Shown here: piece by piece, positions 5,240-63,422 of the stretch
Layout of the letters: each line of letters starts with the position of its first letter
Numbering within the stretch: the first letter of the stretch is position 1
From: Antedon bifida
Lineage: Eukaryota > Echinodermata > Crinoidea > Comatulida > Antedonidae
Length of the DNA stretch: 64,000 nucleotides
Reading direction: 5' to 3'
NCBI GenBank assembly: GCA_963402885.1
Contig: OY727098.1
Coordinates: 9,968,717 to 10,032,716, forward strand
Made by a program: the position numbers and the translations under genes
Notes under the pieces: generated by a model
The model's database searches: none
What the model was told of the DNA's origin: nothing
What the model saw: the letters and a program-made list of their open reading frames with translations, nothing else

Positions 5240-8153
5240 ACCACCGAATTTTGTAGCAAATGAGTAATTAACAATTATTTGATTTATTTTTTTCTTTTAA
5301 TCCTAATATTACAGTCTCTCATTTCCAATACCAGACATCGTTCTGTAATGGTTCTATTTCAGTTTGCAATAATGTTGACCAAAAAACGTTGAGGGTTGAT
5401 GACTGATGGAGGATGAATATTTACAAGACCATGTTTGTATTTTGTAGAACATAGTTGATCGTCGAATATTTAGAGAAAACCCAAGGTGGAAATTAATTGA
5501 CTCACACGAGTTCTGCGGTACACGGAGGACCATAAGCGAGCAGATGTTCTTTGGACCTGTTCAAGGCGCTTGATCCCATCCAATGTGAATTCCATATTTC
5601 GCCATCATGGGCCTATCTCAAATTGTGGTAGCTAGGCTTAACAGCATATAGATAAACACAGGAAATTACACCAAAACATAATAATTTGCTATAGTTCAGC
5701 AGTTATTTTTGTAATGTGCTTAGTGAGATTACTGTATACAACATTCTAACTTTAATGAAACACACAAAGTTTCTGAAATGTGTTCATTGAATTAGAAAGA
5801 TCCCCTCACGCTTCAAATGTGTTCATTCAATGCGTAACAGTTTTAAATATTGTCTATTATCTATTTAATAATTTAAGAAACAATGATTTTTTATCAATTA
5901 CTTCAAAAATAAATAAATAAAATCAGTAGTAGCCATTTTGTGTAACGATAAATAATATTGTCTGAAATGCTCTATTTAATTATAAAATAGGACCTATCAA
6001 GTATCAAATACATACAATTTTATTGGATTCAGGTTTCCTTCTGTAGTTGATTTCTATCAATAAATTAATTTTATTTCAGAGTCTGTGGCGTACTCTGTCA
6101 AATAATCCTAAAATTAAACTATATAGGCCTTGTACTGTATTTTTTATATTCAGTAGTAGTGAAGTGACCCACGTCCCAACATTCCAGTAAACAAAAATTA
6201 ATGTCTAATTTCCAAAGAACCTTCGTCGTCAGCCGCAGACAAACTTAGACCTACTCACTATTCAAACAATTCTTATACTATAATAGGCCTACACAGCATT
6301 CGCCAACAATATTTACCATAGAGGGAGGATGGTTTGACCATTATTTAATGATAAATTGCGTTGACAGCCACACGAAAACAATGCTTATTCAACAGGCCTT
6401 ACTGACTATTGTCTGCATACATCTCATAGACTGTCTTCGGCCAGACGTGCTTAGGAGTTTACGCATGCTCATGCGCATTTTTTCAGACAAACTATAAGCT
6501 TTCACGTGATACAGTTTCCTAATGCTTCCGTCCTCTTGAATATAACTGCCTAAAGGCGCGACGCGAAACACATTTTTATTTCAACTAAAAATGTCTATAC
6601 ATTTTGTTGAGTTGTTCATGCCTAGTCCACGTATGTCTGTATTTGGCAATGCCTTAAATTTAAGTAGACATAATTGTTTTCATCATGCATGGAATGGTCC
6701 CAAGATGATGTTTCATGAGAGTGTTGCCACTCTCCATTTTCATGACAGCGCCCCCTCTTTAAATTGCGTTTGAAGTAATACTGAAAATTGGAAGTTAATG
6801 GATTTTGTACTAAAAATGCTTTTGATATGACAGTGAAATGACCTTTAAAAAATGACGGCGAATTTTGTAGCCCTACTGAATTTTCGTTTGAAATAATTTT
6901 GTAATGAAAATACGGTTAATGCGACAGTGAAAATGATGTTTTACATAAATTTGTTTAAAGTGAATTGATTTTGTACTGAAAAAATCATCATCATTATCAT
7001 CGTCGTTGTCGTCGTCATCAACAGCAACAACAACATTTGCTTACTATCGAAAATGTGTTCTTAATGTATCATAATTTCCTTGTTGTTGGCAGTCAAATAT
7101 AAGTACTGATCTATTAGAAGAGATTAACATTTGTTTGTAAATTAAGGTTGTTATACCGGGAGTGACTACAAGGGCGTTCATGATTATTACGCATCATGTC
7201 ACTTAATCCACTGTTACCATAGAAACCATTGTATCTGTAGAGTCCACAACCGTTATCTTTTAAATAATTGAATTAACAATTAACAATAATGCAGCTGTTT
7301 TCTAATTTGTAAGTTTAAAAAATGAAATAAATATGGAAAAATGATTCTGATGAGAATATGCGTACTTGTAAAAGGTGTTCATTGAATATGAATGAGTATG
7401 AACCGAGTAATTGTGTTGTGGAATAAAACCACACATAGATCAATTTAGGCCCTATTTAGCGTTTGTTCAGGGCGCTAGTTGGTAGTGCATTTTGCGCGTG
7501 ATTATTTTCTATAAAAGACTTTTTTTAAATACTATAGGCTAAGTTCAATCGTTTAATTTTATTTAATAGACCTAAGGTTAATTTCAATCATTAGATTGTT
7601 CATACCAGATAATTCACGATTTTAGAAATGGTAAAAGCATAATTATTCCTATCCCATGTTGTGGAGAGTTTTGAAGATCATTCATGTTTATTCAAAATGT
7701 TCCCCTTATGCTTTACTGTAGGCCTACGCTTATTAAAAGCCTGTGGATTAAGAGGTCATTACAGAGGATTCGACACTAACTGCTAATATATAGATACATT
7801 CCCACCAATATCCTGTACTTAATAAATAATAATTAAAAGTATCGTTGACACAATTATTTAAAGATAATAATTTTTAATTTTACGATATATTCAGATTAAG
7901 TTGGGTTTTTTTTTCAAAATAAAATATAAAATCATAGGCCTATATATATATATAAATATTAAATAATAATCAATGTAATATTTCTGTTTTGTTTTCTTTG
8001 TATTAATAGCGATATGAGAAAGGTTGACCCGAAACCACCTGGATAAAATAGAAAATTATACGAAAAGAAAATAATAAGCCTATGCACACTCTGGCCAATA
8101 ATCGCTCTGGTTGGAGAACTTTATTTGACTCAATAATAATAACGGTGGACAGA
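5240..8153. other. No gene recognised
   Basis: AT-rich sequence with no splice-supported frame. A minus-strand frame at 6389-6571 is open and contains a GCGCATG-type palindromic region near 6462-6478, resembling an NRF1-type promoter word, but there is no further support for a first exon. A short ATC/GTC-rich run lies at about 6986-7030. Confidence 0.4.
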
Positions 8154-9827: not shown

Positions 9828-11150
9828 TTATGATAATGATGATGATGGTGGTGGTGGTGATAGTGGTGATAGTGATGAGGATGATGGTGGTGGTGGTGGT
9901 GGTGGTGGTGATGGTGATGATGGTGTTGATGGTGATGGTGATGATGGTGGTGGTGATGGTGGTGATGGTGATGAGGATAATAATGATGATGGTGGTGATA
10001 ACGATACTGATGACGACAACGATGATGATGGTGATGATGACGATGATGATAATGGTGGTGATAACGATGAGGAGGATGATGATGATAACGATGATGATGA
10101 TAGTGATGACGATGATGATGGTGGTGACGATGATTGAGGATGATACTGGTGATGATGATAGTGATGATGATGATGATGGATGATGGTGGTGATGATGACG
10201 ATGATGAAGATGATGCTAACGATGATGACGATGATGGTGGTGATGATGATGATGATAACGGTGATGGTGATGACGATGATGACGATGATGGTGGTGATGA
10301 TGATGATGATAACGATGATGGTGGTGATGACGATGATGAGGATGATGGTGGTGATGATGATAGTGATATGATGATGATGATGATGGTGGTGATGACGATA
10401 ATGATAATGATGGTGATGATGATAGTGATGACGATGATGGTGGTGATGATGATAATAACGATGATGATGATGACGATGATGAGGATGATGGTGGTGATGA
10501 TGATGGTTATGACGATGATGTTGGTGATGATGATAATGATGATGATGATGATAATAATGATGATGTTGGTGATGACGATGATGATGGTGATGACGATGAT
10601 GAATATGATTATGGCGATGATGGTGATGACGATGATGGTGGTGATGATGATGATAACGATGATAATGATGAGGATAATGATTAGGGTGATGGTGAGGATG
10701 ATGAGGGTGATGGTGGTGATGATGACGATTATGATGATGATGATTATAACGATGATGATGATGATGATGAGTGATGATGATGATGGTGGTGATGGTGTTG
10801 ATGATGATGATGATAACGATGATGGTGATGACGATGATGGTGGTGATGATGATGATGATGATAACGATGATGGTGATGACGATGATGGTGGTGATGATGA
10901 TAGTGATGATGATGATGGTGGTGATGACGATAATGATAATGATGATGGTGGTGATGATGATAGTGATGACGATGATGATGATGATGACGATGATGAGGAT
11001 GATGGTGGTGATGATGATGGTTATGACGATGATGTTGGTGATGATGATGAGGATGATGGTGGTGATAACGATGATTATGATGATGATAGCGATGGTGATG
11101 AAGATGATGGTGATGAGGATGATGGTGGTGATGATAGTGACTACTGTACA
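9828..11150. repeat. 1.3-kb GAT-type trinucleotide array
   Basis: Almost entirely GAT-register triplets on plus (gat, gac, gag, ggt, aat variants). Long frames on both strands (Asp/Met/Val-rich on plus; His, Ile or Ser/Pro-rich on minus) are by-products. A longer order exists: the block starting gaggatgatggtggtgatga at about 10481 recurs at about 10995, a ~514-bp step that includes the same rare variants (ggttatgacgatgatgttgg). The array therefore grew by segmental duplication as well as slippage. Confidence 0.95.
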
Positions 11151-14299: not shown

Positions 14300-14672
14300 A
14301 TTTATAAATTTTATTTTATTTTAATTTTTTTTAAATTTATTTTATTCAATGGAAACCAACAGCGATAATTACCGCCACTACGGGTTTGATACAAAATTAA
14401 TTCTAACATTGATCAAGGGCTTCTCTCGTCCAATGCCCACCTTGACCAGAGGAAAGGCATGGGCCAATACGTCTGAGGCAGCTACTAAATGCAGGGGCTG
14501 CCATAAGAGTCAGCAGTGCTGATTTCAAATACCTAACGGGACCCCAGCTCCATATATAGCACCCGATATTCCCAGATGGTCTCCCATCCAAGCTCTAACC
14601 AGACTCCACGTTGCTTAACTTCGGTGATCTGACGAAAACCGGTGTTTCAACGTGATAAAGCCCGTATCAACG
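14300..14672 (-). mobile_element. 5S-rRNA-derived SINE
   Basis: Read on minus from about 14672, the sequence follows metazoan 5S rRNA: the segments accggttttcgtcagatcac, cgaagttaagcaacgtgg, ctggttagagcttggatggg, agaccatctgggaatatcgg and gtgct correspond to the internal control region (A box, intermediate element, C box). It then runs into about 200 bp of non-5S body and ends in an A-rich tail at 14300-14345. The body and tail argue for a SINE3/Deu-type retroposon rather than a 5S gene. Confidence 0.8.
14547..14672 (-). rRNA. 5S rRNA-like segment (SINE head)
   Basis: The 5S-homologous part of the element above. The central and 3' portions align best and the 5' end is diverged. Not expected to be ribosomal, because it reads directly into a SINE body and lacks a T-run terminator at the 5S end. 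Confidence 0.7.
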
Positions 14673-21329: not shown

Positions 21330-24301
21330 ACAATTCTAAATTGACGAAATTAGCATTCTGTTAGATACCATAGGTCGTGCGTTTGATGTACTTGGTTTCT
21401 CGGAAACCTGGATAAATAAGAACACGCCAATTGACTTATTAAATATCAATGGATACAATATGTACACTTGTAATAGAGAAGGTAGAGTCGGTGGTGGAGT
21501 TTGTCTATATTTAAAAGAACAAATCAACACCGTAACACGTGATGATTTTGTATTTAATGATAACTCCATTGACTTTTTCTAGAAATAATAAACACAAACG
21601 GCAAAAATACTATTGTCTTTATGTTGTATCGACCACCAAATTCAAACGTCAACTCATTTAACTCTGATCTGGAAGAAATCTTACATAAGCTTAATCGCGA
21701 AAACAAAAACTGCTATATCTTAGGAGATTTTAATCAAGACTTATTAAAATATGACATTCAAAAAACAACACAGGAATTCACAAACATTATTTACTCAACA
21801 TCTTTTAATCCATTAATCAACTTACCCACCAGAATAACATCGTCTTCTGCTACAATTTTAGATAATATTATTACAAATGATGATAACATTTCGCATTGTG
21901 GAGTAATAGTCACAGACATTACCGATCATCTACCCATTTTCATGACAACACACCTGTCATTAAATACTAACACACAAGCTCCAATTACAAAACAAAAAAT
22001 AATTAATGATACAACATTAAATAACTTGCTTATTGCTATTTCTAATGAGGATTGGGGTAAACTATATTTATGCACAGATACCAATACATCATATAACCTA
22101 TTTATTAAAAAACTATCCAATCTCATAGATAATAACATACCTACAAAAAGTAATAAGCCAAATGGTAATACAAAGAAAAAACCATGGATCACAACAGGAA
22201 TTTTGATTTCAATAAAAAAGAAAAATAAACTTTATAAAAAATACCTTAAAAACCCAACACAATTATTAAAAAATATAGGCCTATATAAAAAGTACAAAAA
22301 TAAATTAACTCATTTAATTAGAATTCGGAAAAAACAATATTATTCCAAAAAACTGGATGCGGCTCGACACGATTCAAAGCAAACATGGAAAGTTTTAAAT
22401 GAAGTTCTAAATAGAAAAAAATCGAGTGTTAGGCCAAATGAGGTAATTAACCATAGTAATACAACTTTGGTATGTGATCCAAAAGGTATGTCTGACGCTT
22501 TTAATGACTTCTTCTCCAACATTGGAAATGAATTAGCAAACCAAATACCAAATGTAAACAATTCTGACTTTAAACAATATATGAAAGAGAGTCAATCCCA
22601 ATCCATATTTTTCAATCCTACGAATGAAGAAGAGGTCATTGAAATAGTTAGTCAAATCAAAAATTCAAATTCAGAAGGTGTTGATAACTTAAGTAATCGC
22701 ATTCTAAAACATATTATTGCTGCTGTGGCATCTCCTCTTGTACATATCTTTAACCTCTCTCTTGAGACAGGCATGGTCCCTGATAGTATGAAAGTAGCTA
22801 GAGTAGTTCCAATTTTGACATCTGGCAATAAAAGTGACGTCAGTAATTATAGGCCGATCTCTATTCTGCCTACCGCTTCAAAAATTCTTGAAAAAATTGT
22901 TCAAATTAGGTTAAATAATTATATCACAAAGTTTAACATCCTTAATAATGCACAATATGGTTTCAGAAAAAACAGTTCTACTTTTATGGCCGTTATAGAT
23001 CTGGTTGAACGAATAACCGATGCGCTTGATAAGAAAAAAAATACCATCGGAATATTTATTGATTTGTCAAAAGCGTTTGACACCATCAACCATGATATAC
23101 TTCTAAAAAGATTGGAACACTAAGGCATAAGAGGCACGGCCCTTAAATGGTTTAGAAACTATATTAGTGGAAGGAAACAATTTACGTCTATTGATAACAC
23201 AAGTTCGTGTTTGATGGATATAAATTGCGGTGTACCACAGGGTTCAATTCTGGGGCCTCTACTTTTTATTTTGTACATTAACGATGTATTTAATTGCTCA
23301 AACTCGTTATCTTTTGTTTTATTTGCTGACGACACAAACATATCTGCATCTCACGAAAACTTGGATACGCTCATAGAAAAATGTTTCGGATTGGTTCATG
23401 TGCAATAAACTATCAATCAACGGTAAAAAAACTAATTACATAATTGTCCGCAATCAGCGAAATCCAAGTAAATTAGAGAATGTAAATATTTATGTCAACA
23501 ATAAAAGAATAGATAGAGTTAAATCGACTAAATTCCTTGGAGTACATATTGATGAATTTCTCACATATAAGAACCACATCAATGTTACAGCTAGGAAAAT
23601 ATCTCGATATGTAGGCATACTATATAAAGTAAGACATTTTTTACCAACCTATGCTCTCTGGACAATATACAAATCACTCATTGAACCAGTATTAAATTAT
23701 TGCAACATAATATGGTGTAGTACATTTCCAAGTTATCTAGATGAGTTATTTAAACTCCAGAAAAGGGCATTACGAGCTATAACATGGTCAAAGTTTAATG
23801 ATTCAATGACTGAATGTTTCTATAAATTTAAACTTCTTAAAATTGCGGATATCAATAAGTACCAAATTGGGCTTTTCATGTATAATGTTACTACTAACCA
23901 GGACGTGCGTTTTTCATCGCTCTTTATTAAAAATGGTTCTTACCATAATTATAATACAAGATCTAAAGACAAAATGAGACTCAGAAAACGTAATCGTACT
24001 TCTACTAGTTTTACTGTGTCATGTGTGGGACCCAAATTGTGGAATGACTTGAATTACGAACTACAAAGTACCAAATCAATATATATATATTTAAATCATT
24101 GTTTAGAGAACATTTATTATCATTTTACAAATAATTTTAAAAATAATACTTGTTGCAGGATTTAGCTTTTTTATTATTTATGTTCAAGCTCTTTTGAGTT
24201 TTTATGTGTTTCCTTTTCATCTTTTTTTATGTTCTCATATATTGTTGTTGTATATTTTCATGATTGAGGATGAATAAAGAATATTTGAATTTGAATTTGA
24301 A
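21330..24301 (+). mobile_element. LINE: APE endonuclease + RT (jockey/CR1-L2-like), 5'-truncated
   Basis: The largest retroelement here. Endonuclease pieces: VLGFSETWINKNTPIDLL, GGGVCLYLKEQ, then in a shifted frame MLYRPPNSN and ILGDFNQDLL, with DITDHLPIF. RT pieces in the 21621-23123 frame: RVVPI, NYRPISILPTASKILEKIV, NAQYGFRKNSST and IFIDLSKAFDTINHDILL. A TAA at 23121-23123 replaces an expected Tyr codon. The same frame resumes with GIRGTALKWFRNYISG, GVPQGSILGPLLFILYIND and the catalytic FADDTN. A one-base shift near 23385 leads to KLSINGKKTNYIIV, TKFLGVHIDEFLTYKNHIN and the C-terminus ending at 24165. The 3' UTR ends at 24301 in a TTTGAA-type microsatellite tail. ORF1 and the N-terminal endonuclease are missing. 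Three frame breaks make it inactive but fairly young. Confidence 0.92.
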
Positions 24302-24884
24302 AATAATTTAGAGAGAGAGTTGACGTTTTGAGCATTCGACTGTTCTTGGCATCCGGATGTTTCACGTAAGAGGTTAAACCACTAGATACGTCTATTACAC
24401 GATTCCACATCAAATGGGAACATAATGCTTGGTGAAGTTGTCTCTGTAGTTGAACAGCACACTTCACAGATGAAAATGGTGATAAATCCCTTCAAAGATG
24501 AGTTATGGGTTCTCTTTCCAAATCTATAAGCCTTCTATTCTATAGACTCGCCTCTGACTGACTATGGCATAAGGTTAGCTACGTTAGTATTCAATACGTT
24601 GAAATTAGAATAAAGGATGCGTTGAAATTGATCTTTCAACTACGTGTATTCTCAAGCAATAACAGCACTAATATGTATTATCAACCTGACAATACCCGTA
24701 ATCAAATAGATCGCCTGCCTCTGTCCATCATTCTTTTTCATAACGTTTAGATTGCCGTAGTTTTAGGCACAACTCCTTGTGTGGGGTGTCAATATGGTTT
24801 TGTTAAGTGAAACCTCATTTCATGTTTACAGAAAAGATCCAACAGGAGAATGGTCACCACTGTATTCATCGACATTAAAAGAAC
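24302..24884. other. No gene recognised
   Basis: Spacer downstream of the LINE tail; nothing supported. Confidence 0.5.

Positions 24885-25056: not shown

Positions 25057-25086
<30 letters not shown>
25057..25086. repeat. TA microsatellite
   Basis: Sits exactly between the inverted SINE tail and the PLE-repeat fragment, suggesting that the TA run derives from element ends. Confidence 0.9.
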
Positions 25087-25088
<2 letters not shown>

Positions 25089-25210
25089 AAAGGCAAATTA
25101 CCGAAAATGACAATGATGTGGGTATCAGTGGCTGGATCTCAGTGGAGATACAAATAAAATAAGGAAGAAGCTAAATCAAAATGATAAAGTAAAACAGCCA
25201 GAAAATTTGC
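25087..25210 (-). mobile_element. PLE terminal-repeat fragment (family B)
   Basis: Shares ccaaaggcaaatta, atcagtggctggatctca, gagatacaaataaa and gataaagtaaaacagccaga with 56607-56772 and, inverted, with 46712-46842 and 60580-60705. The copy stops just before where the hammerhead core would begin. Confidence 0.7.
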
Positions 25211-25220
25211 ATGAATTTTG

Positions 25221-43100: not shown

Positions 43101-44134
43101 CTACTTGATAACATAGTTAACACTAGTGCATCAAGCAGAAGATGACGGAGAAACACTCACTGATCGTACTGCAATAGATTTGGTCAAAAATGTGAACATC
43201 CCAGCCTGTCGTAGTAGCACAAGACACGGATATACTAGTGTTACTATGTTATAATCGGCCTGGTAACTGTTTTAATCTTTTTCTACAATCAGATGGTGAT
43301 GGCCTCTATGATGATATATCTAAAATAGTTATCGGTGACAAGGAAGAGTTTCTGTTTAAGTATGGTTCGTCAAGAAACGACACTGTTTCGTGCATTTATG
43401 GCCACACCAAATGTTCAATCTATAAATGCAAGTTTCCCAATACATTTACGAATATGCAGTCGACTGATAACGCCATCCAAACAGCAGGGTTAATAGCAAT
43501 GGAGGTTACATAATGGAAGCGAAAATACACTTCTTGAAAAGTCTCATTATGAAAAGTTAAAAAAACAAGCAGCAAAGGGTAAAATTGACCCAGACCGTCC
43601 ATGGGTATATTGACCTTAATTCCTGGCACAATTGTGTGCATTTTGACACCAGGATCAACCATATAATATACCATATTTTGTTGCGAAGATACAATTTTTA
43701 GCATTTTAAAAGGAGGTCAATGACCTTTAACACCCCAAAAAAAAATGTCCCCACCTCCTATCCTTCCTTACTTTTTTGGGTATATCTGTATACCCATACC
43801 TACACAAATCCGTTGAAATCAGCTTCTTTGCAATTTTTTGCAGATGAACCTTAATATGGTTACTATACTAGCTCTTCTTCAGTGCAAGTGAGAGAATACT
43901 AGAAAGTGTTAGGAATATATAAGTCAGGCAAAGCGCTACATGAATTATGGACTGGAATAAAATAAATAAAGCAAAGGAGACACAGCCAGACTGGTGGATA
44001 GAGGGTAGAAAACTGAATAAGAGTAGAAAACAATGAAGATAGCTTGGTAGATATAAACGATTTAGGAATGAAAAACCAAATAACAACTCAAATGGTGGTT
44101 AATGTTGAAACTTAAATTGGTGAATAATGAATAT

Positions 44135-46477: not shown

Positions 46478-46842
46478 AGTTTTAATATTAACCACCATTT
46501 AAGCTGTTTTTTTAGTTTTATTCCAAAATTGTTTATATCTACCAAGCTATCTTCTTTGTTTTCTACCAAATACTATCTCCACCCTCTATTCACCAGCCTT
46601 GTGCCTTTTTTTATTTCTGTCCACTCAGGCAGCGCTTGCCTGATATGTTTATCTATCTTTGTAACTTCACTTGCACTGATGAAGGGCTAGTGTTGCCCGA
46701 AAGCTCTGCTAATTTGTCTGGCAGTTTTACTTTATCGTTTTGATTTAGCTTTTCGCTTCGTATCTTCATTGAGATACAGCCACTGATACACACAGCATTG
46801 TCATTTTTTCAGTATTTTGCCTTTGGATTTATATAATATCCA
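46478..46842 (+). mobile_element. PLE terminal repeat, family B
   Basis: Runs from ttaaccaccatttaagctgt through gtccactcaggcagcgctt, the hammerhead, gcagttttactttatcgttt and gagatacagccactgata to tgcctttggatttatata. Other copies or pieces: 25087-25210, 42006-44108, 48735-48905, 56607-56772 and 60511-60705. Confidence 0.8.
46676..46711 (+). ncRNA. Hammerhead ribozyme motif (PLE family B)
   Basis: CTGATGA at 46676-46682, stem II GGGC/GCCC with a 7-nt loop, GAAA at 46699-46702, then stem III A-GC/GC-U with loop TCT and predicted cleavage after A46711. Stem I is weak. The core is identical in the copies at 48855 and 56733 (minus). Confidence 0.75.
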
Positions 46843-53023: not shown

Positions 53024-53120
53024 CTAGGCCTCGGTCTACATTATGCCTCGGTCTACATTAGGCCTCGGTCTACATTAGGCCTCGGTCTACATTATAGGCC
53101 TCGGTCTACATTAGGCACTA
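53024..53120 (+). repeat. 17-bp minisatellite, second array
   Basis: Variants of attaggcctcggtctac, including attatgcctc and attataggcctc forms, where repeat R resumes after the 1-kb segment. Confidence 0.9.
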
Positions 53121-54566
53121 GGGCCTATAGTGTCTGTTTACAGGTTTGTAAGTGCATAAACAGAGTAGGCCTAGACCTAATTTTTCTGGAATCTAGGCAT
53201 AGATTAGTATAGGCACTGACTAGGCCTATGTCTAGAAATAAGCATGGCCTAGTATTATTTACAGCTTTTTAGCCTGGGGGCCTAGGCTAGGATAGGCCTA
53301 CTCCTAGCCTAGTTTAGCTAGGAGGCATAGCCTATCTTAGGCTAGGCTAGGCCTAGGTAGTACTCAGTACTAGAAGCCTGCCTAGGCCTAGATGTAGCCT
53401 ACATCCTAAAACTAGACTAGGCCTAGGCTAGAACCTCTAGTAAAGGCTTTGACAGGTATCTAGGCCCTACCTACATTATGTATGTTAGGGCCTATCTGAC
53501 TTCTAGCATAGGCCTAGCCTAGACATTTACCAAAGGTGTACTGTATGTTTCCCTTCTACATCATTAACAGCTAGCTTAGAACAAGCCCCGCATTAAATCA
53601 AGCATCCATCCTAAATATTTTTAATATAATTTTGTAATAAATACACTGTACTATTATTCACGAATTAAACATACTATTATGACTTACAAAGCAAATTAAT
53701 TTTTAGTTTTAGTGTCCGGTTTGGAGTATTCAATCAACTACTTAATTAATTAACGTTTTAATGTGACTAACAACATATGAAAATATAAATAACAATTACT
53801 CCTTAAAAAAATTATAAATAAAGTAATAAAAAATAATAATTCAATCCAAATAATGGTAGTAGGCCTATCTAGTAGTAACAAAAGAGATTTCTTAAAATAG
53901 TAACTATTGAATGCTGTTGATGTTGACTGTATTCAGTTTTTTCAGTTAAAAACAAGATGGTACAAATGGAAAAAAGATCTAGAAGAGAGGAAAATAACAA
54001 GATGAAGGAGCAGAAAATATATGGTTGAATATATGACTAAAATCATACCTTACATTAAAACAATCAATTAAATTAATATTTTATATAAAGCATGAAATTA
54101 ATGGCAGGACATGTAATGAGGCCAGTCAAACTAATAACATATAGCATTGAAATAGTAATAGTAAATGTAAAATAAAGAGGTAATTTAGGTGGAAAAATGC
54201 TAATAAAAAAAACAAAATCTGCTAATATTAAACTACAAGTAAAAATGTTTATTCACATATTTTTTTTATTAATTATATTTTCAGCCTCTGCTATGATTAG
54301 TACCAAGTATTGTTAATCAGTCACCACTTCTCATGCTTTCAACAAGATTTACTTAACAATTTGATGTCTTTTAAATGTAATTGGTCATCTCAATATTGAT
54401 TTATGTTTTAAACCATCAGATAATAGTGCTAGTAATAATTGTAGCAGTACAATTAAAAATTAAAATTTGTAATGTGATTAGTTCACAACACAATTACAAA
54501 AGACAGTAAAAAAGTAGTTAATTTAAAATTCCCAAATTCAATTTAACTTTCCGGAAAACGCTTGCC

Positions 54567-56565
54567 TCATTTTTTTAGGTTTCTCACCTTGTCATACACA
54601 CATTTTATGACCATATGTTGAATGGATACGTTTTTGTCATAAATGGCTTTAACCTTTAAAAAATAAAAATATTTATAATTAATATTGTTATTTTTTTTAT
54701 CATCATAAGATTGGAATTGTAGCTCTTACATTGCTTGTTCACTTTTATTTATATTTATAAATTATATAAATTTATTGTATTTTAATTATGATGAGATTTA
54801 TTTTTATTATTACAGTACATTATTTGAAATCATGGCTAAAAATACCGTATTTATGTGGTAGGAAGTTAGAAAGTTCAAATAAGGTTTCCGAATTCAACAT
54901 AACTTGCATTTTCAACAAAATTAAATTCACGGTATGTTGAATTTTTACAGTGCTGTAAGCCTATTTAAACTGTCTAACCTACCAAATAATGTTATTCCCA
55001 CTTACCTTATCCATTGTAATTTTGCCTTTGAGGACATCAGCATACAACGTTTTCAACAGGCCAATATCCATTTCAGAAAACACATGTCTGATTTTTCGAC
55101 TGGTCAACTAAAAAAATGAAGATAGTGTGTAAATGAATGTATAAACATTTTTTCATACTTGATTTTAATCTATAAGTGAATTCAATTAATGTGTTGTACA
55201 TAGATGAAACAGTAGGCCTATGATTAGATACATTTAAAATATATTAAACTAATTTATAATTGTTACCGGCAAAGGTGTATAATCTTCATCTGATGATGAG
55301 TTGAAGTTTTCTTGATCTTTAGCTGACAAAAAACATAAATGGCATATACTTTCATAAGTAAAATATAAAAAAAACAACATCAACATGGAGTGATGCATGT
55401 ATGATGCCACATGTTCTCTATTTGCGTTATTGTTTTTATTTTTTTCCCATGACTGAAAAATAGAATATATAAAATCAGTAATAGTGTTTATTTCAAATAT
55501 TTGTTTTAAATTGTCTTATTCAGTAGCCTAGAGTGTTTTTCCTTACCAAAGTTGCTAGCTGCTTCCTAAAATGTGTGCAGTTTATTGTCTTTTCTCTTCG
55601 TACACCTAGGCTGTGCCACATCCGTGTTAACTCTTGGCAATTTTTTCACCAGTTGTGGTTTTAAAAAATGTATCAGACTCTTGAATGTTTGAGAGGTTTT
55701 TTAAATGATTCATTAATTCAACAAGGTCTTGTTCAAGAATCAAAACTGCTGGTCCTTGTGTTGCTGTTTTGTGATTTGTAACCTATTATTGTTAAAAAGT
55801 AGATTTGATAGTCTTCAACAATGCTTTATTATTAAACAAATAAATCAAATTTTTTATATTATGAAAATGCATAATAATTAGTTTTTCCTTATTGACAATT
55901 TGCTGTGCTTTGTTTTTGGTAAGATAATAATACAAAAAAAATACAAAAATTGTTACAATTTTAATGCCACCTAATATTGTAAGTAATTTAGCTAAATTTA
56001 AAAATTCAACATACAATCTTTTTTACTTGATATGATAATTTAAGCCTGTATACTGTATAATTCATAATGTATATAACGTAATAATGTTGTGATCTACAGT
56101 ACTTCTTGACATTTAAGAGTTCATCTGTACTTACTGAAACACAATAATTACCATTGATTTCCTCGGCCTGCTGGAATTCAGATACAGTCATCTTCGAGAT
56201 GATGCTGGAGCGACAGCCATTGCGCAGGCAAATCAGTGATAAGTACCTTTGAAAAACACTATGTCATCCAACGACAGTGTTTTACCATGATTTAGCTTTT
56301 CTGAAAGTTGTAAAATTATAACACAATTTTATTTTCTATAGAGAAATAAATTAAATAAATAGGGGAGAGGGAAGAGAATCAAATAAACTAAAAATGAATT
56401 CCAGTTGTAATGTGATGTACCTATTCTGGTTCTTTTTTTTTATATATTTCAATGAATGAAAATAAAAAAAATGTTTTTATTAAATTGAACATGCTGCTAT
56501 TCAATTTACTATAATAATAATATTAATAATAATAATAATAATAATAATATAATAATAATATTAAT

Positions 56566-56609
<44 letters not shown>

Positions 56610-56780
56610 CCAAAGGCAAATTACTGAAAAAAATGACAATGCTGTGGGTATCAGTGGCTGGATCTCAATGGAGATACAAATAAAAAAAGCGAAAAGCTAA
56701 ATCAAAACGATAAAGTAAACAGCCAGAAAAGTTAGCAGAGCTTTCGGGCAACACTAGCCCTTCATCAGTGCAATAATAAT

Positions 56781-56820
<40 letters not shown>

Positions 56821-59051
56821 AATATATAAATATAATAATCATTATATGAAATAATAATACCCTTTATTTTCCTTGCCAGTGGTTTTGATCGTTCCAAAAA
56901 ACAGTTCTTCTTCCTGCGTCGTTATCATCTCATCTAATCAAACAAAAAATGTGAGTTTATCTTCTCTGCATAGCACTTAAATGTTCTTTAGATCTGTTTC
57001 ATGCCATTTTTTTTTTTTTTTTTGTAAATGTTTTGTAATGGCTGAGAGATTGTTGGATGGTTTTGCTACATGTTCTATGAGTCGTTCACCAAACCTTTGG
57101 TTTTACCTACATATAGTTTATCACAGCTGTAGCATGGGATCTACATCTATTTTATCTCCCTGTCTAATTGTACAAATATTCAGTAGTTCATCTGAACTCA
57201 ATCATTTGTGAAGCATATTTTTTTTTTTATTAAGAGGACAAAAATATTTGTAGGGTTTATACAGGACAGCTTTGTAGTTTAGTTTCCTGTTTAATTTTGT
57301 TGTTAATTAGTGAGTAATATACAAGCAAAACATTTTTAATTACAAAACTCACCCTTTATTTTTGATTTTTTCTTCTCTTTCTGCAAAGCGATTCCTTTAT
57401 TTAACAACTTTGCTAATATTCGCAATTTATTTTGGCTGTCAAAGACCATTTGTGTTGTATACTCTGGCACGTCAAAAGTGGCGAAGTCTAAGTAAGTTTG
57501 TCCACTTGTTAAGTAGTGTCTGACTGTGCTCGGAGTTCTTTTTGCACGTAGATCATCGATTTTACTATTATTTTAAAAATAAACAATTATGAATTTATCA
57601 ATAGCTATCACAAATTATGAATTCATTATTGTGAAGCTGTTTATTTTATGTTACAATCTTACCTTCTGAGGTGTTGTGTTTCAAAAAAGTTAATGGGGTC
57701 GCCATCAGTCAGATATTTTAATTTCCGAACAGCATTGTTTCGCCTGGTTTCTATTAAACATGCGGCTTTTGGTTAGGTATTTCATGAAATCCCTTTTTTG
57801 CGTTTCTAAATATATTATATTGAAATAAAGGAAAAAGGGTGGTTATTCTGAAATATATCTAAATATTAATGTAAATTGATTTGACATTTTATTAAAATGC
57901 TAGTTCCTAATGAAGATGTAACGTAAAAACTCACCCTCCTGAGGAATGTCAATTGTTTGCTTCATAGCATCTTTGTATCTGCTATCATTTATCTATAAAG
58001 AAAAAAAAACCTAAATAATCAAGATGGTTGCATGTTTTTTGTTGAAGATTTGTCACATTGATAATGTAAAGATTCAAAACTTTCTGAATAAAAATTTTAC
58101 CTAATATAAATACAATATAATAATAATTAAATTTGAATGTCTGTGTTGAATGTGAAAAAAATGTTTACATTGAGCTTGTGCACTGACTGAAGATGAAGTC
58201 GGACAACATTTGCCTCGCAGATGGCACATTCTTTACTTTTGGAGTTTACAGACTCTTCTTCTTTTATCCTAATAAATTTAGTGTGAAAAAAACTTTGAAG
58301 CAATTTCATACTGTAATTCAAAATAATATGGTTAATGTTATTGTTTATTACTGTGAAAACCCAAACTGTGTAATATAGTTTGAATGGCATATGCCCACTC
58401 ACTTCATTTTCATTTCTTTTAAAATTCTCTTTTTGAATAAGACATTTACTTTATGGACTTCAGCAATGTGGCGCGAAGTGTTCATTGTGTATTTTCCACA
58501 CACACGGACATGCTTAAAAAAGAATAAATACCCATTATTAAAAAAAAAAATATTGGCAAATATGATTTATTAATTGACTTAAAGATAAAAATAATAAATT
58601 GCATTTTTCAAGAAACTAAAGTTAATGTTTTGTTACAAAAAAAACAGCCCAATGAATTCATGCTGTAAAAAAATTATAATACAGATTACAATACTTAATA
58701 AAATTATAATTATAATATAAATTATAATATTGAGTAGTTTAATACAGATAAAAATAGAACAAAAACAAACTCAGTGAACGATGATGAATTGAAAGTAAGA
58801 AACCAATGTTATAGTTGTGTAAAATTCTAATTATGTTTCTACCTTCTTGGCACGTGCAACTTTGTCTTGTTTACTGAAAAGTATAAAATAAACTGAATGT
58901 TTGTACAACATAAAAAAACACTCCCTGTTTCTGTTAATATCAAATGCCCTAACTTTTTTTAAACCAAATATACTCACATTTCTTTAGCATGTTCATGTGA
59001 TATGTGATGCTCTATGTCGCATACTTTTTTACCACATAAGGTGCACAGAAT
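54567..59051 (-). CDS. Multi-exon zinc-finger tyrosine recombinase
   Basis: Fourteen minus-strand exons with conventional splice sites and matching phases: 58978-59051, 58843-58873, 58403-58512, 58169-58268, 57935-57992, 57663-57750, 57353-57564, about 56880-56933 (GC donor), 56135-56300, 55547-55782, 55350-55452, 55267-55322, 55006-55107, 54567-54653 (TGA). Product at least ~480 residues; the first exon is not found. N-terminus: C2H2-like CTLCGKKVCDIEHHISHEH, VCGKYTMNTSRHIAEVHK (one Cys unclear) and CAICEANVVRLHLQSVHK. Core-binding region: KRTPSTVRHYLTSGQTYLDF. Catalytic part: CLRNGCRSSIISKMTVSEF (Arg I), VTNHKTATQGP (Lys), THFRKQLAT (Arg II), SYMHHS (His III) and a Tyr nine residues later. 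C-terminal extension: SSSDEDYTPLP, KITMDKVKAIYDKNVSIQHM. One-base frame slips occur in a T-run near 56255 and an A-run near 55645. Host gene versus transposon is unresolved. Confidence 0.8.
56505..56606. repeat. AAT and TA microsatellites in the recombinase intron
   Basis: taataataa runs followed by a TA run abutting the PLE fragment; similar runs follow it at 56773-56815. Confidence 0.9.
56607..56772 (-). mobile_element. PLE terminal-repeat fragment in intron, family B
   Basis: Inverted relative to 46676-46842: ccaaaggcaaattactg, gtatcagtggctggatctca, ataaagtaaacagccagaaa and the hammerhead. Inserted within the intron between the exons at 56880 and 56300, flanked by simple repeats. Confidence 0.85.
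56733..56768 (-). ncRNA. Hammerhead motif, family B, third copy
   Basis: Minus-strand CTGATGA (56762-56768), GGGC/GCCC stem II and GAAA (56742-56745), followed by the AGC/GCT stem III; the core is unchanged from the 46676 copy. Confidence 0.75.
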
Positions 59052-59369: not shown

Positions 59370-59898
59370 TAAATGTGTATAGGGCCACAGAGTGATCAAA
59401 AAAAAAATTCCAAGAAATAAAAAATAAAGGTCTATTTATATACTATAAGTTGCCCCAGATAGTAGGTAGTAGTATTTCCGATTCCGACCCTTACAAGATT
59501 TTAATAACTTGAGGAGCCACATGGCATATTGTTAAACTTTCCATAGCAGGGGATATACGAAAATACCATTCACGGCAACTTTATTCTGTACGTTTTCCAA
59601 GACAGTAACCTACAAATTCTCCAGCCACTACAAGATTTAACCACACAACTATTTTTTTTCTGCATTGTAATTATTACCCTTGGGATATACGAAAATACCA
59701 TTGAGATATAAAAAATACATGTGAGCCAGTAGCAATTTTCCCCCAGACAGTAACCAAATATCTACTATATCTAACCAATATCTACACAAAGATTTAAGCG
59801 TGTGAAGAGAGATGACTAATTCCACTTTACAATACGAAAATACTCATGACAGCAACTTCAATTTTTTAAGTTGTCACAGACAGTATCCCATAGACAAG
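59370..59898. repeat. Decayed tandem-like sequence
   Basis: Words such as gatatacgaaaataccatt, gacagtaacc and cactacaagattt recur two to three times. No coding content. Confidence 0.5.
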
Positions 59899-59941
59899 AT
59901 ATGTGATGCTTTATGTCGCATACTTTTTTACCACATAAGGT
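59899..59941 (-). pseudogene. Duplicated fragment of the recombinase zinc-finger exon
   Basis: The ~43 bases including gatatgtgatgct, tatgtcgcatac and ttttttaccacataaggt repeat the 59001-59042 part of the first visible exon, with one substitution in the body. The fragment lies at the head of a tandem array. Confidence 0.85.
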
Positions 59942-60510
59942 ACCTCTACCCATGTCTAACTACTAAAATGTCCTGTATTATTATGTTATCTTATTCTGTT
60001 ATATTTGTTTAAAATATTTACTCTTAAATTGTGTTCTATAGTAACTGTACCCCTACACATGTCTAACTACTTGAATATCCTGTATTATTATGTTGTCTAA
60101 TAGATGATTTCTCAACAAATCTTTCTGTTATATTTTTCTAAAATATTTACTCTTAAATTGTGTTCTATAATAACTGTACCACCACACATGTCTAACTACT
60201 TGAATGTCCTGTATTACTATGTTGTCTAATAGATGATTTCTCAACAAATCTTTCTGTTATATTTGTCTAAATTGTTTACTCTTAAATTGTGTTCTATAAT
60301 AACTGTACCCTACACATGTCTAACTACTTGAATGTCCTGTATTATTGTGTTGTTTAATAGATGATTTCTCAACCAATTATTCTGTTATATTTGTCTAAAA
60401 TATTTACTCTTAATTGTGTTCTATAGTAAACTGTACCCTACACATGTCTAACTACTGTACTTGAATGTCCTGAATTATTGTGTTGTTTAATAGATGATTT
60501 CTCAACCAAA
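59936..60510 (+). repeat. Tandem repeat, ~120-135 bp unit, ~5 copies
   Basis: acatgtctaactacttgaat or a variant recurs at about 59952, 60057, 60187, 60308 and 60443, with shared atagatgatttctcaac and cttaaattgtgttctata segments. Confidence 0.9.
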
Positions 60511-60705
60511 TAACCACCATTTAAGCTGTTTTTTTAGTTTCATTCCAAAATTGTTTATATCTCTACTATATATATTATAGTGTTAGCCCTGCTAACTTTC
60601 TGGCTGTTTTACTTTATCGTTTTGATATAGCTTTTCGTTTTTTTTTTGTATCTCCATTGAGATCCAGCCACTTATAACCACAGCCCTGTCATTTTTTCAC
60701 TAATA
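60511..60705 (+). mobile_element. PLE terminal-repeat fragment, family B, ribozyme lost
   Basis: taaccaccatttaagctgtt through ctgctaactttctggctg, gatatagcttttcg and tgagatccagccact. Where the hammerhead should be, only a tgttagccctgctaac scar remains, so most of the core is missing. Confidence 0.75.
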
Positions 60706-61354: not shown

Positions 61355-63422
61355 GATGCACATAAAATGCCACACCTTCTTGTGTACGGCCGGCCCGGGG
61401 GGCTGCCGCGCCCGGCCCGGCCGGCCTAATTAGGCTTACCGCTAAATTAGGCCTCGGTCTACTTTAGGCATAGGCCCTAGTGTCTGTTTACAGATTTGTA
61501 AGTGCATAAACAGAGTAGGCCCTAGTAGGGTAGATTAGACTTAACTTTTCTTGAATCTAGGCCTAGGATAGGCACTGACTAGGCTAGGCCTATGTCTCGA
61601 AATAGGCATGGCCTATTATTTACAGATTTTTAGCCTGGCTGGGCCTACTTACTAGCTAGGCCTAGGCCTATTCTGGATAGGAGACCTAGTCTACCTAGGT
61701 AGTACTCAGTGCTAGTAGCCTGCCCAGGCCTACTAATGTAGCCTACATACATCCTAAAACTAGGCCTAGGCTAGAAAGAACCTCTAGTAAGGCTTTGGCA
61801 GGCATCTAGGTCTACATATGTTAGGGCCTATCTGACTTGCATAGGCCTAGACATTTACAGAAGGTGTATTGTAGGTTTCCCTTTATCATCATTAACAGCT
61901 AGCTTAGAACAAGCCTCGCATTAAATCAATCAAGCATCCATCCTAAATATTTTTTAAATAATTTTGTAATTATTCACGAATTAAACATACTATGGCTTAC
62001 AAAGCAAATTAATTTTTAGTTTTAGTGTCCGGTTTGGTGTATTCAATCAACTACTCAACTCAATAATTAAAGATGTATTGTCCCTTTGACTAATTCCCAA
62101 AAAAAATTTTTTTTATTATTTCAAAAAAAAGTGTGTCATTTTGAAGTATCATAATAGTTATTAACTTTCACCAAAAACTAGTCAAAAAAAAAATCATTTA
62201 ACTGAAATACAGACGTTTTTTTGTTCAAAAAATAACTTTGACTTCCAGTCAAAGTTTTTGATCAAAACATATCTCATAATGCAACGCGCTTGTTTGGGTA
62301 CTCTGTATACATAATCATAAAATTTCCTCGAGATCTGTGTGAAAACACCTTCTCAACTGTGACGAGTTGTAAACAATCCTAATTAGCATCATGCATAATG
62401 CATACTCATGGTTTGAAATCTTTGTTTACTTTCGCTCGCGACGATTTTCCAAAAGAAATGGTATTAAATTAATTTACCTGTTAATTACGTAACTTAAACG
62501 TAAATTTTCGACTTAAAGTGAATAACTTTAATATTACTTTGATATGGCCAATTTAAATTTAGACTATTTTGACCTTCATTTTTTTGTGTTTCAAGGGACA
62601 ATACATCTTTAAGGTATTTATGACTTCAGGTATTTTGTTTAAGTCCCAAGCTTTTTCAACTCATGTTTGACTAACAACATATGAGAAACAATTACTTTTA
62701 GGTCATAAAAATAACAATTACTTCTTAAAATTTTAAATAAACATTATTAATTCAATCCAAATAATGGTAGCAAAAGAGATGTTTTAAAATAGTAACTATT
62801 TAATACTGTTGGTGTTGAATGTATTCAGTTTTTTTTCAGTGAAAAACATGATGGTACAAATGGAAAGGATCTAGAAGAGAGGAAAATAACAAGATGAAGG
62901 AGCAGGAAAAATATGGTTGAATATATGACTAAAATCATACCTTACATTAAAACAATAATGAGTAAATTACATTAATATTTTGATATTACAATAAAGCATG
63001 AAGTCAATGACAGGACATGTAATGAGGCCAGTCAAACTAATAAATAAAGACGTAATTTAGGAGGGAAAATGCTTATTAAAAAGAACAAAAACTGCTAATT
63101 TAAAACTTGTTTATTGTTCATTCATGCATTTTATTTATTAATCTTATTTTCAGCCTCTGCTATGATAGTACCAAGTAGTGTTAATAAGCCACCACTGCTC
63201 ATGCTTTCAACAATTGTCTTTTAAAGGTAATTGGTTAACTCAATATTGATTTATGTTTTAAACCATCAGCTAATAGTGCTGGTAATAACTGTGGCAGTAC
63301 AATTAGAAATTAGATTTACAGTTATCGAACAAAATTTGTAATGTGATTAGTTGACAACACAATTACAAAAGACAGTAAAAAAGTAGTTAATTTGAAATGC
63401 CCAAATTCAGTTTAGCTTTCCA
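61355..63422. repeat. Long direct repeat R, copy 2
   Basis: Same order and orientation as 51801-54552, without the 1-kb segment and with a MITE inserted at 62071-62608. Similarity stops at agctttcc near 63422. Part of its 3' half (gatctagaag..., ggttgaatat..., cattaaaacaa) is echoed, diverged, at about 63650-63780. Confidence 0.9.
62071..62608. mobile_element. TTAA-target MITE, copy 2 (538 bp)
   Basis: Same TIRs and body as 45356-45902; TTAA at 62067-62070 and 62609-62612. Repeat copy 1 has an aattaattaacg sequence at the corresponding site (about 53740), i.e. an empty target. Confidence 0.92.

Follow-up and report, generated by a model that had tools for sequence, protein, structure and literature searches.

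The 64,000-nucleotide stretch of the Antedon bifida genome analysed here (C11:9968717-10032716; hereafter, the window) carries a copy of a multi-exon gene on its minus strand, at positions 54567-59051. Read in order, its exons encode C2H2-like units, a core-binding region, a tyrosine-recombinase (YR) catalytic domain and a conserved C-terminal region (Table 1). The splice sites are credible, all GT-AG with one GC-AG, and the motifs NGCRSS, NHKTA, THFRKQLAT and MHHS are all found on the minus strand, as a preliminary description of this DNA had reported. The exons that it listed are real, given their match to a crinoid protein (see below), but its exact set of fourteen was not reproduced: we delineate 13 segments, or 14 pieces when exon 11 is split as in tandem copy 3. 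The C2H2-like segments are likewise present, albeit the unit in exon 3 has lost a cysteine and that in exon 4 is two residues shorter than in the copy at C11:10.89 Mb. A core-binding region is probable at exon 7, while the helices ascribed to it appear only in the low-confidence structure model of the Anneissia japonica homologue (pLDDT 38, unusable). No start codon was found and, as a splice acceptor precedes exon 1, further 5' exons must once have existed.

Table 1. Features of the recombinase-like locus and of its surroundings, in window coordinates.
Feature	Positions	Strand	Basis or remark
Second, partial exon 1 copy (open segment), located upstream of the gene	59861..59959	-	similarity by eye
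Exon 1 (least certain; C2H2-like unit CTLCGKKVCDIEHHISHEH)	58978..59051	-	splice sites; weak matches to A. japonica and C16-copy fingers
Exon 2 (short linker)	58843..58873	-	splice sites; within DNA common with tandem copy 2 (58744-58971)
Exon 3 (C2H2-like unit lacking the first Cys that A. japonica and copy 3 have)	58403..58512	-	splice sites, sequence comparison
Exon 4 (C2H2-like unit CAICEANVVRL..HLQSVH)	58169..58268	-	splice sites, copy comparison
Exon 5 (linker)	57935..57992	-	splice sites, copy comparison
Exon 6 (frame change near 57713-57716)	57663..57805	-	comparison with A. japonica and copy 3
Exon 7 (probable core-binding region)	57353..57564	-	splice sites, copy comparison
Exon 8 (GC donor)	56877..56933	-	splice sites, copy 3 alignment
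Exon 9 (Arg I box NGCRSS; frame change near 56250)	56135..56300	-	splice sites, A. japonica and copy 3
Exon 10 (boxes for Lys, NHKT, and for Arg II, THFRKQLAT; frame change near 55642)	55547..55782	-	splice sites, A. japonica and copy 3
What remains of exon 11a, up to His III (MHHS); Tyr-bearing end and donor deleted	55387..55452	-	copy 3 alignment
Intron remnant with spurious Tyr codon	about 55323-55386	-	aligns to copy 3 intron
Exon 11b (acidic/serine linker)	55267..55322	-	splice sites, copy comparison
Exon 12 (first half of conserved C-terminal region)	55006..55107	-	splice sites, A. japonica match
Exon 13 (second half of conserved C-terminal region and stop codon)	54567..54653	-	splice sites, A. 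japonica match
mir-137 precursor	24635-24706	-	sequence match
Non-LTR retrotransposon-like ORFs, more than one frame	21573-24165	+	first ORF: endonuclease and RVT_1 (Pfam)
5S rRNA match	14551-14667	-	sequence match
1.3 kb imperfect ATG trinucleotide array	9830-11135		long open frames on both strands

A short interspersed repeat of about 120-180 bases occurs at 56580-56773, 25057-25211, 46671-46839 and 60585-60704, the first of these being flanked by AT/ATA microsatellites within the intron that follows exon 8. Two segments, 53066-54552 and 61422-63421, form a repeat pair with 77% identity, and their homology ends at 54552, 15 bases past the stop codon in exon 13.

The joined exons matched a single protein, the uncharacterized A. 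japonica LOC117114584 (isoform X3, P0001, 697 aa), with an E-value of 6e-142; the alignment covers 92% of the query at 40% identity, a similarity far beyond chance. The two share their domain order, with 39-45% identity over the finger, core-binding, catalytic and C-terminal regions. The A. japonica sequence retains R426, K456, R530, H555 and Y564. Unlike the window copy, it has an open reading frame that includes the tyrosine; the predicted protein also bears an extra catalytic part in front, 91% identical. No other relative was returned from 5.8 billion proteins, E-values up to 10 included, in a search that can miss distant relatives because it needs shared 5-residue words.

We searched the A. 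bifida genome (315.6 Mb in 27 contigs) for further members, obtaining 19 exon matches with the A. japonica protein as the query and 16 with the copy 3 peptide. Copy number, which the preliminary description had proposed to count, proved low. Copies 1-3 are arranged in tandem on C11, a fourth lies at C11:10.886-10.892 Mb (its aligned parts match copy 2 at 88-96%), further pieces are found on C10, C12, C13 and C16, and a diverged subfamily occupies two loci on C8. At the DNA level, the window copy is 76-80% identical to copy 3 and 70-77% identical to copy 2, with exons and introns in common. The DNA comparison covered copies 1-4 and the C10, C12 and C16 loci; intron DNA is common to all of these except the C16 locus, which gave no DNA match and whose exon matches run only from the fingers to the core-binding region (one with an internal stop). 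All the compared copies are tandem or partial and end at differing points; no common termini were seen among them, and no full-length dispersed copy was found. All six copies checked for lesions (c1-c6) carry a stop codon in frame or a shift of frame; the C13 and C8 loci are outside this set.

Copy 2 itself carries a 4.4 kb insert (L009:4263-8640, C11:10036979-10041356) whose ends are inverted, at 92% over 332 bases and at 96% over 126. Its ORFs include '..VRTVDTDIIIILI..LWVAFGTGNHF..', and none of the four tested had a Pfam match. By eye, similar ORFs are found at L011:8782-9855 and at window positions 43196-43513.

The C8 loci (L037, C8:475001-485000; L038, C8:19320001-19330000) encode the R-K-R-H-Y set in their matched exons. 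The second, at 19.3 Mb, has two tyrosine exons, a stop in the core-binding match and an upstream C2H2 unit; the exon at L038:8391-8507 was used in the five-row family alignment, as the nearer one (6172-6279) has proline in place of histidine. Another zinc-finger YR-like gene, with long ORFs, lies at 16.83 Mb on C10 (L039:841-5271, C10:16826841-16831271). It encodes the C2H2 unit 'CLYCNLPQMKLPRHLKSQH' and the end 'FLGHDIRTHRQYYRLP', appears by eye to have a second partial copy upstream, and yielded no YR Pfam match in four ORFs. Uncharacterized proteins with fingers and a similar end occur in fish, corals and molluscs.

Alignment to A. japonica and to tandem copy 3 shows that the homologous frame of the window copy shifts within exons 6, 9 and 10. 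Exon 6 has a net gain of one base, by our own reading of the alignments, and exons 9 and 10 are, respectively, 4 and 7 bases shorter than in copy 3. A start of exon 6 at 57750 was discarded as a phase-fitting artefact, given that A. japonica places it at 57805. We sought in-phase bypasses by enumerating GT/GC-AG joins. Those around exons 6 and 9 either skip conserved residues (exon 5 to mid exon 6; exon 8 directly to VFQRYL) or require introns of 13-17 bases, and no in-phase bridge was found within exon 10, up to CQELTR. The phase consistency attributed to the fourteen exons is, therefore, a product of splice choice.

A similar outcome holds for the catalytic tyrosine, said to stand exactly nine residues after the third-box histidine. 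The sequence HHSLxTxNxYYK is found at this site in A. japonica (MHHSLNTQNAYYKA), copy 3 (MHHSLATQNKYYKA, followed by the intron) and a C10 copy (MHHSLATRNKYYKA). In the window copy, by contrast, what follows MHHS aligns to the 3' part of the copy 3 intron, up to the acceptor, and the sequence expected in between (about 200 bases: the end of the tyrosine exon, its donor and the intron's 5' part) is gone. The tyrosine codon at the ninth position (55363-55365) is inside this intron remnant and is thus a coincidence in a T-rich intron, so that the window copy has no catalytic tyrosine in frame. Nor is copy 3 an intact gene, since its tyrosine exon carries an in-frame stop.

That the window locus nonetheless holds a functional 14-exon recombinase gene can hardly be true: the good splice sites and the in-phase bypasses of exon 6 and from exon 8 to exon 9 speak for it, but those bypasses lose sequence conserved in A. 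japonica and the paralogues, exon 10 has no bridge and the tyrosine is intronic. It is also very improbable that the gene is intact and its lesions are assembly errors. Short homopolymers do adjoin the frame changes, and homopolymer error was considered as their cause; however, it was rejected on the copy 3 alignment, where losses of 4 and 7 bases, together with the roughly 200 missing bases, are not single homopolymer slips, and lesions recur in every one of the copies checked. Judging from these alignments, the window copy cannot perform YR catalysis. A zinc-finger YR family with many introns is supported, but not the intact recombinase envisaged at this locus, in view of the frame changes and the tyrosine deletion.

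As a measure of past constraint, we compared the window copy with copy 3 in 14 segments, taken from exons 3-13, that stay in frame. Differences at codon positions 1, 2 and 3 amounted to 57/414, 45/414 and 136/413, respectively, with 262/1770 in introns. Third positions thus differ far more often than first and second positions together (136/413 vs 102/828, p 3e-17) and also exceed the introns; positions 1 and 2 show no significant slowing relative to the introns (p 0.09). An alternative count with another aligner and fewer segments, leaving out those with low local scores (e7, e8, e9a and e12 for copy 3), gave 38/291, 26/292 and 83/284, and 469/2279 for introns. The excess at third positions points to past constraint at the protein level and suggests that the window copy and copy 3 diverged largely as coding genes.

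The assignment of the family to the YRs was assessed through profile searches, with a divided result. No Pfam YR profile matched the window protein, P0001 or a four-row family alignment. A C8 stretch, made of three exons joined with X filler, matched PF00589 with an E-value of 2.8e-4, its score of 21.2 bits being under the curated cut-off of 27.1 bits. Against six bacterial and phage YRs, the family profile without C8 rows gave an E-value of 0.0047 and a probability of 7.5%, a score equalled in 1 of 200 column-shuffle controls, while adding the two C8 loci brought these values to 9e-5 and 59%; in the latter alignment, the five catalytic residues, Arg I, Lys, Arg II, His and Tyr, fall in matching columns. 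The family also has its catalytic residues in the YR order and, judging from A. japonica, at YR spacing (30-74-25-9 vs 24-75-23-9 in XerD). The family departs from the HxxR signature, having T-H-F-R or T-N-L-R, with threonine three residues before Arg II in 5/5 rows; in the window family, histidine sits one residue after its usual position in HxxR. Based on the C8 match to PF00589, the profile comparison with bacterial and phage YRs and the catalytic spacing, the sequence support for regarding this gene family as a YR is good but not overwhelming. Other searches were negative: no integrase was listed for P0001 in PHROGs, a PDB profile search gave 0 matches, and none of the stretches matching the pattern in viral_contigs (133) and genome_contigs (13) encoded a relative.

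The genome contains at least 50 places matching PF00589; 16 of 50 have open frames of 329-333 codons, and none is in the window cluster. In a tree of 17 rows, built from ORFs of both strands (L044, L045 and L047 were left out, and the L039 row consisted of two ORFs joined with X), the window, C8 and C10 16.83 Mb families grouped apart from five ORFs of PF00589 loci with a local support of 0.98, the window-C8 pairing alone having 0.31. The lysine column failed to align in this set, and the separation is suggestive only, as YR sequences are too diverged for it to carry weight.

Eukaryotic YRs are described mainly as mobile elements and as domesticated domains without the full catalytic set (PMC3212892). 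Animal Cryptons and DUF3504 genes resemble the present family as eukaryotic YRs that have been repeatedly domesticated, the animal Cryptons being reported there (Kojima and Jurka 2011) to be without a C-terminal domain; no DUF3504 match was among the Pfam matches listed for the window family (E up to 1-10, with HMMER filters dropping most weak matches). Bacterial and phage YRs (XerD, lambda Int, P2 Int and FimB) agree in catalytic positions and spacing but have neither fingers nor introns, and keep the histidine of HxxR that is replaced here. DIRS and Ngaro elements have an RT-RNase H beside the YR, which the window locus does not: the region 54-60 kb contains a single stop-to-stop ORF of at least 100 aa (107 aa), and the RT ORF found with Pfam, in a scan of 3 of the 24 window ORFs, is 30 kb away. 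There is also a likeness by description with endogenous nimavirus and decapod YRs, for which a nimavirus study (PMC10871703) reports a C2H2 unit, a SAM-like region and a YR, genes of several exons in some cases, and YR-like decapod proteins. The nimaviral YRs differ in being part of large viral genomes that are integrated at telomere repeats or 28S rDNA. No description of this crinoid family was found among the titles and abstract openings listed in literature searches. The family is little described, but C2H2-bearing and multi-exon YRs are already in print for nimaviruses and decapods; a distinct zinc-finger recombinase lineage, as previously proposed, is a fair reading of the sequence and of its single homologue, without being the first of its kind.

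Taken as a whole, the window locus is probably a decayed tandem pseudogene of a low-copy, multi-exon host family that combines C2H2 fingers, a core-binding region, a YR catalytic domain and a conserved C-terminal region. Its three frame changes and the deletion of the catalytic tyrosine mark this copy as a pseudogene, and the low copy number, the abundance of introns and the duplication as DNA make the family look like a host gene family over an active transposon. YRs usually derive from mobile elements, and the locus could instead be the decayed remains of a YR transposon that carried introns, a kind of element named in the preliminary description. We consider this unlikely. The dispersed pieces on C10, C12, C13 and C16 fit such an origin, as do the AT microsatellites in an intron of the window gene, given that some CryptonV families insert into microsatellites (PMC8869645, citing another work). 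However, the copies compared are tandem or partial DNA duplications with introns in common, differing end points and no common termini, and their number is low relative to the PF00589 places (at least 50, of which 16 have long open frames, and none in this cluster).

For the host gene family, function can be approached by analogy with other YRs. In intact members, the fingers and the core-binding region would hold a DNA site, and the Arg-Lys-Arg-His set would assist the tyrosine in forming a 3'-phosphotyrosine link; such members might recombine DNA or might only bind it. A broader proposal, which on these sequences we hold to be distinctly improbable, is that an intron-rich zinc-finger YR family is passed on vertically in crinoids and perhaps in further animal groups, that its five catalytic residues persist in some members (A. 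japonica, C8) and that it may serve a host function in DNA rearrangement or in chromosomes. The window copy offers a lesson for gene finding, as a pseudogene can yield phase-consistent splice choices and a tyrosine at the right distance. If the multi-exon structure, the gene-like duplication and the retention of catalytic residues in some members hold true, the family would be a good test case for the domestication of an active recombinase.
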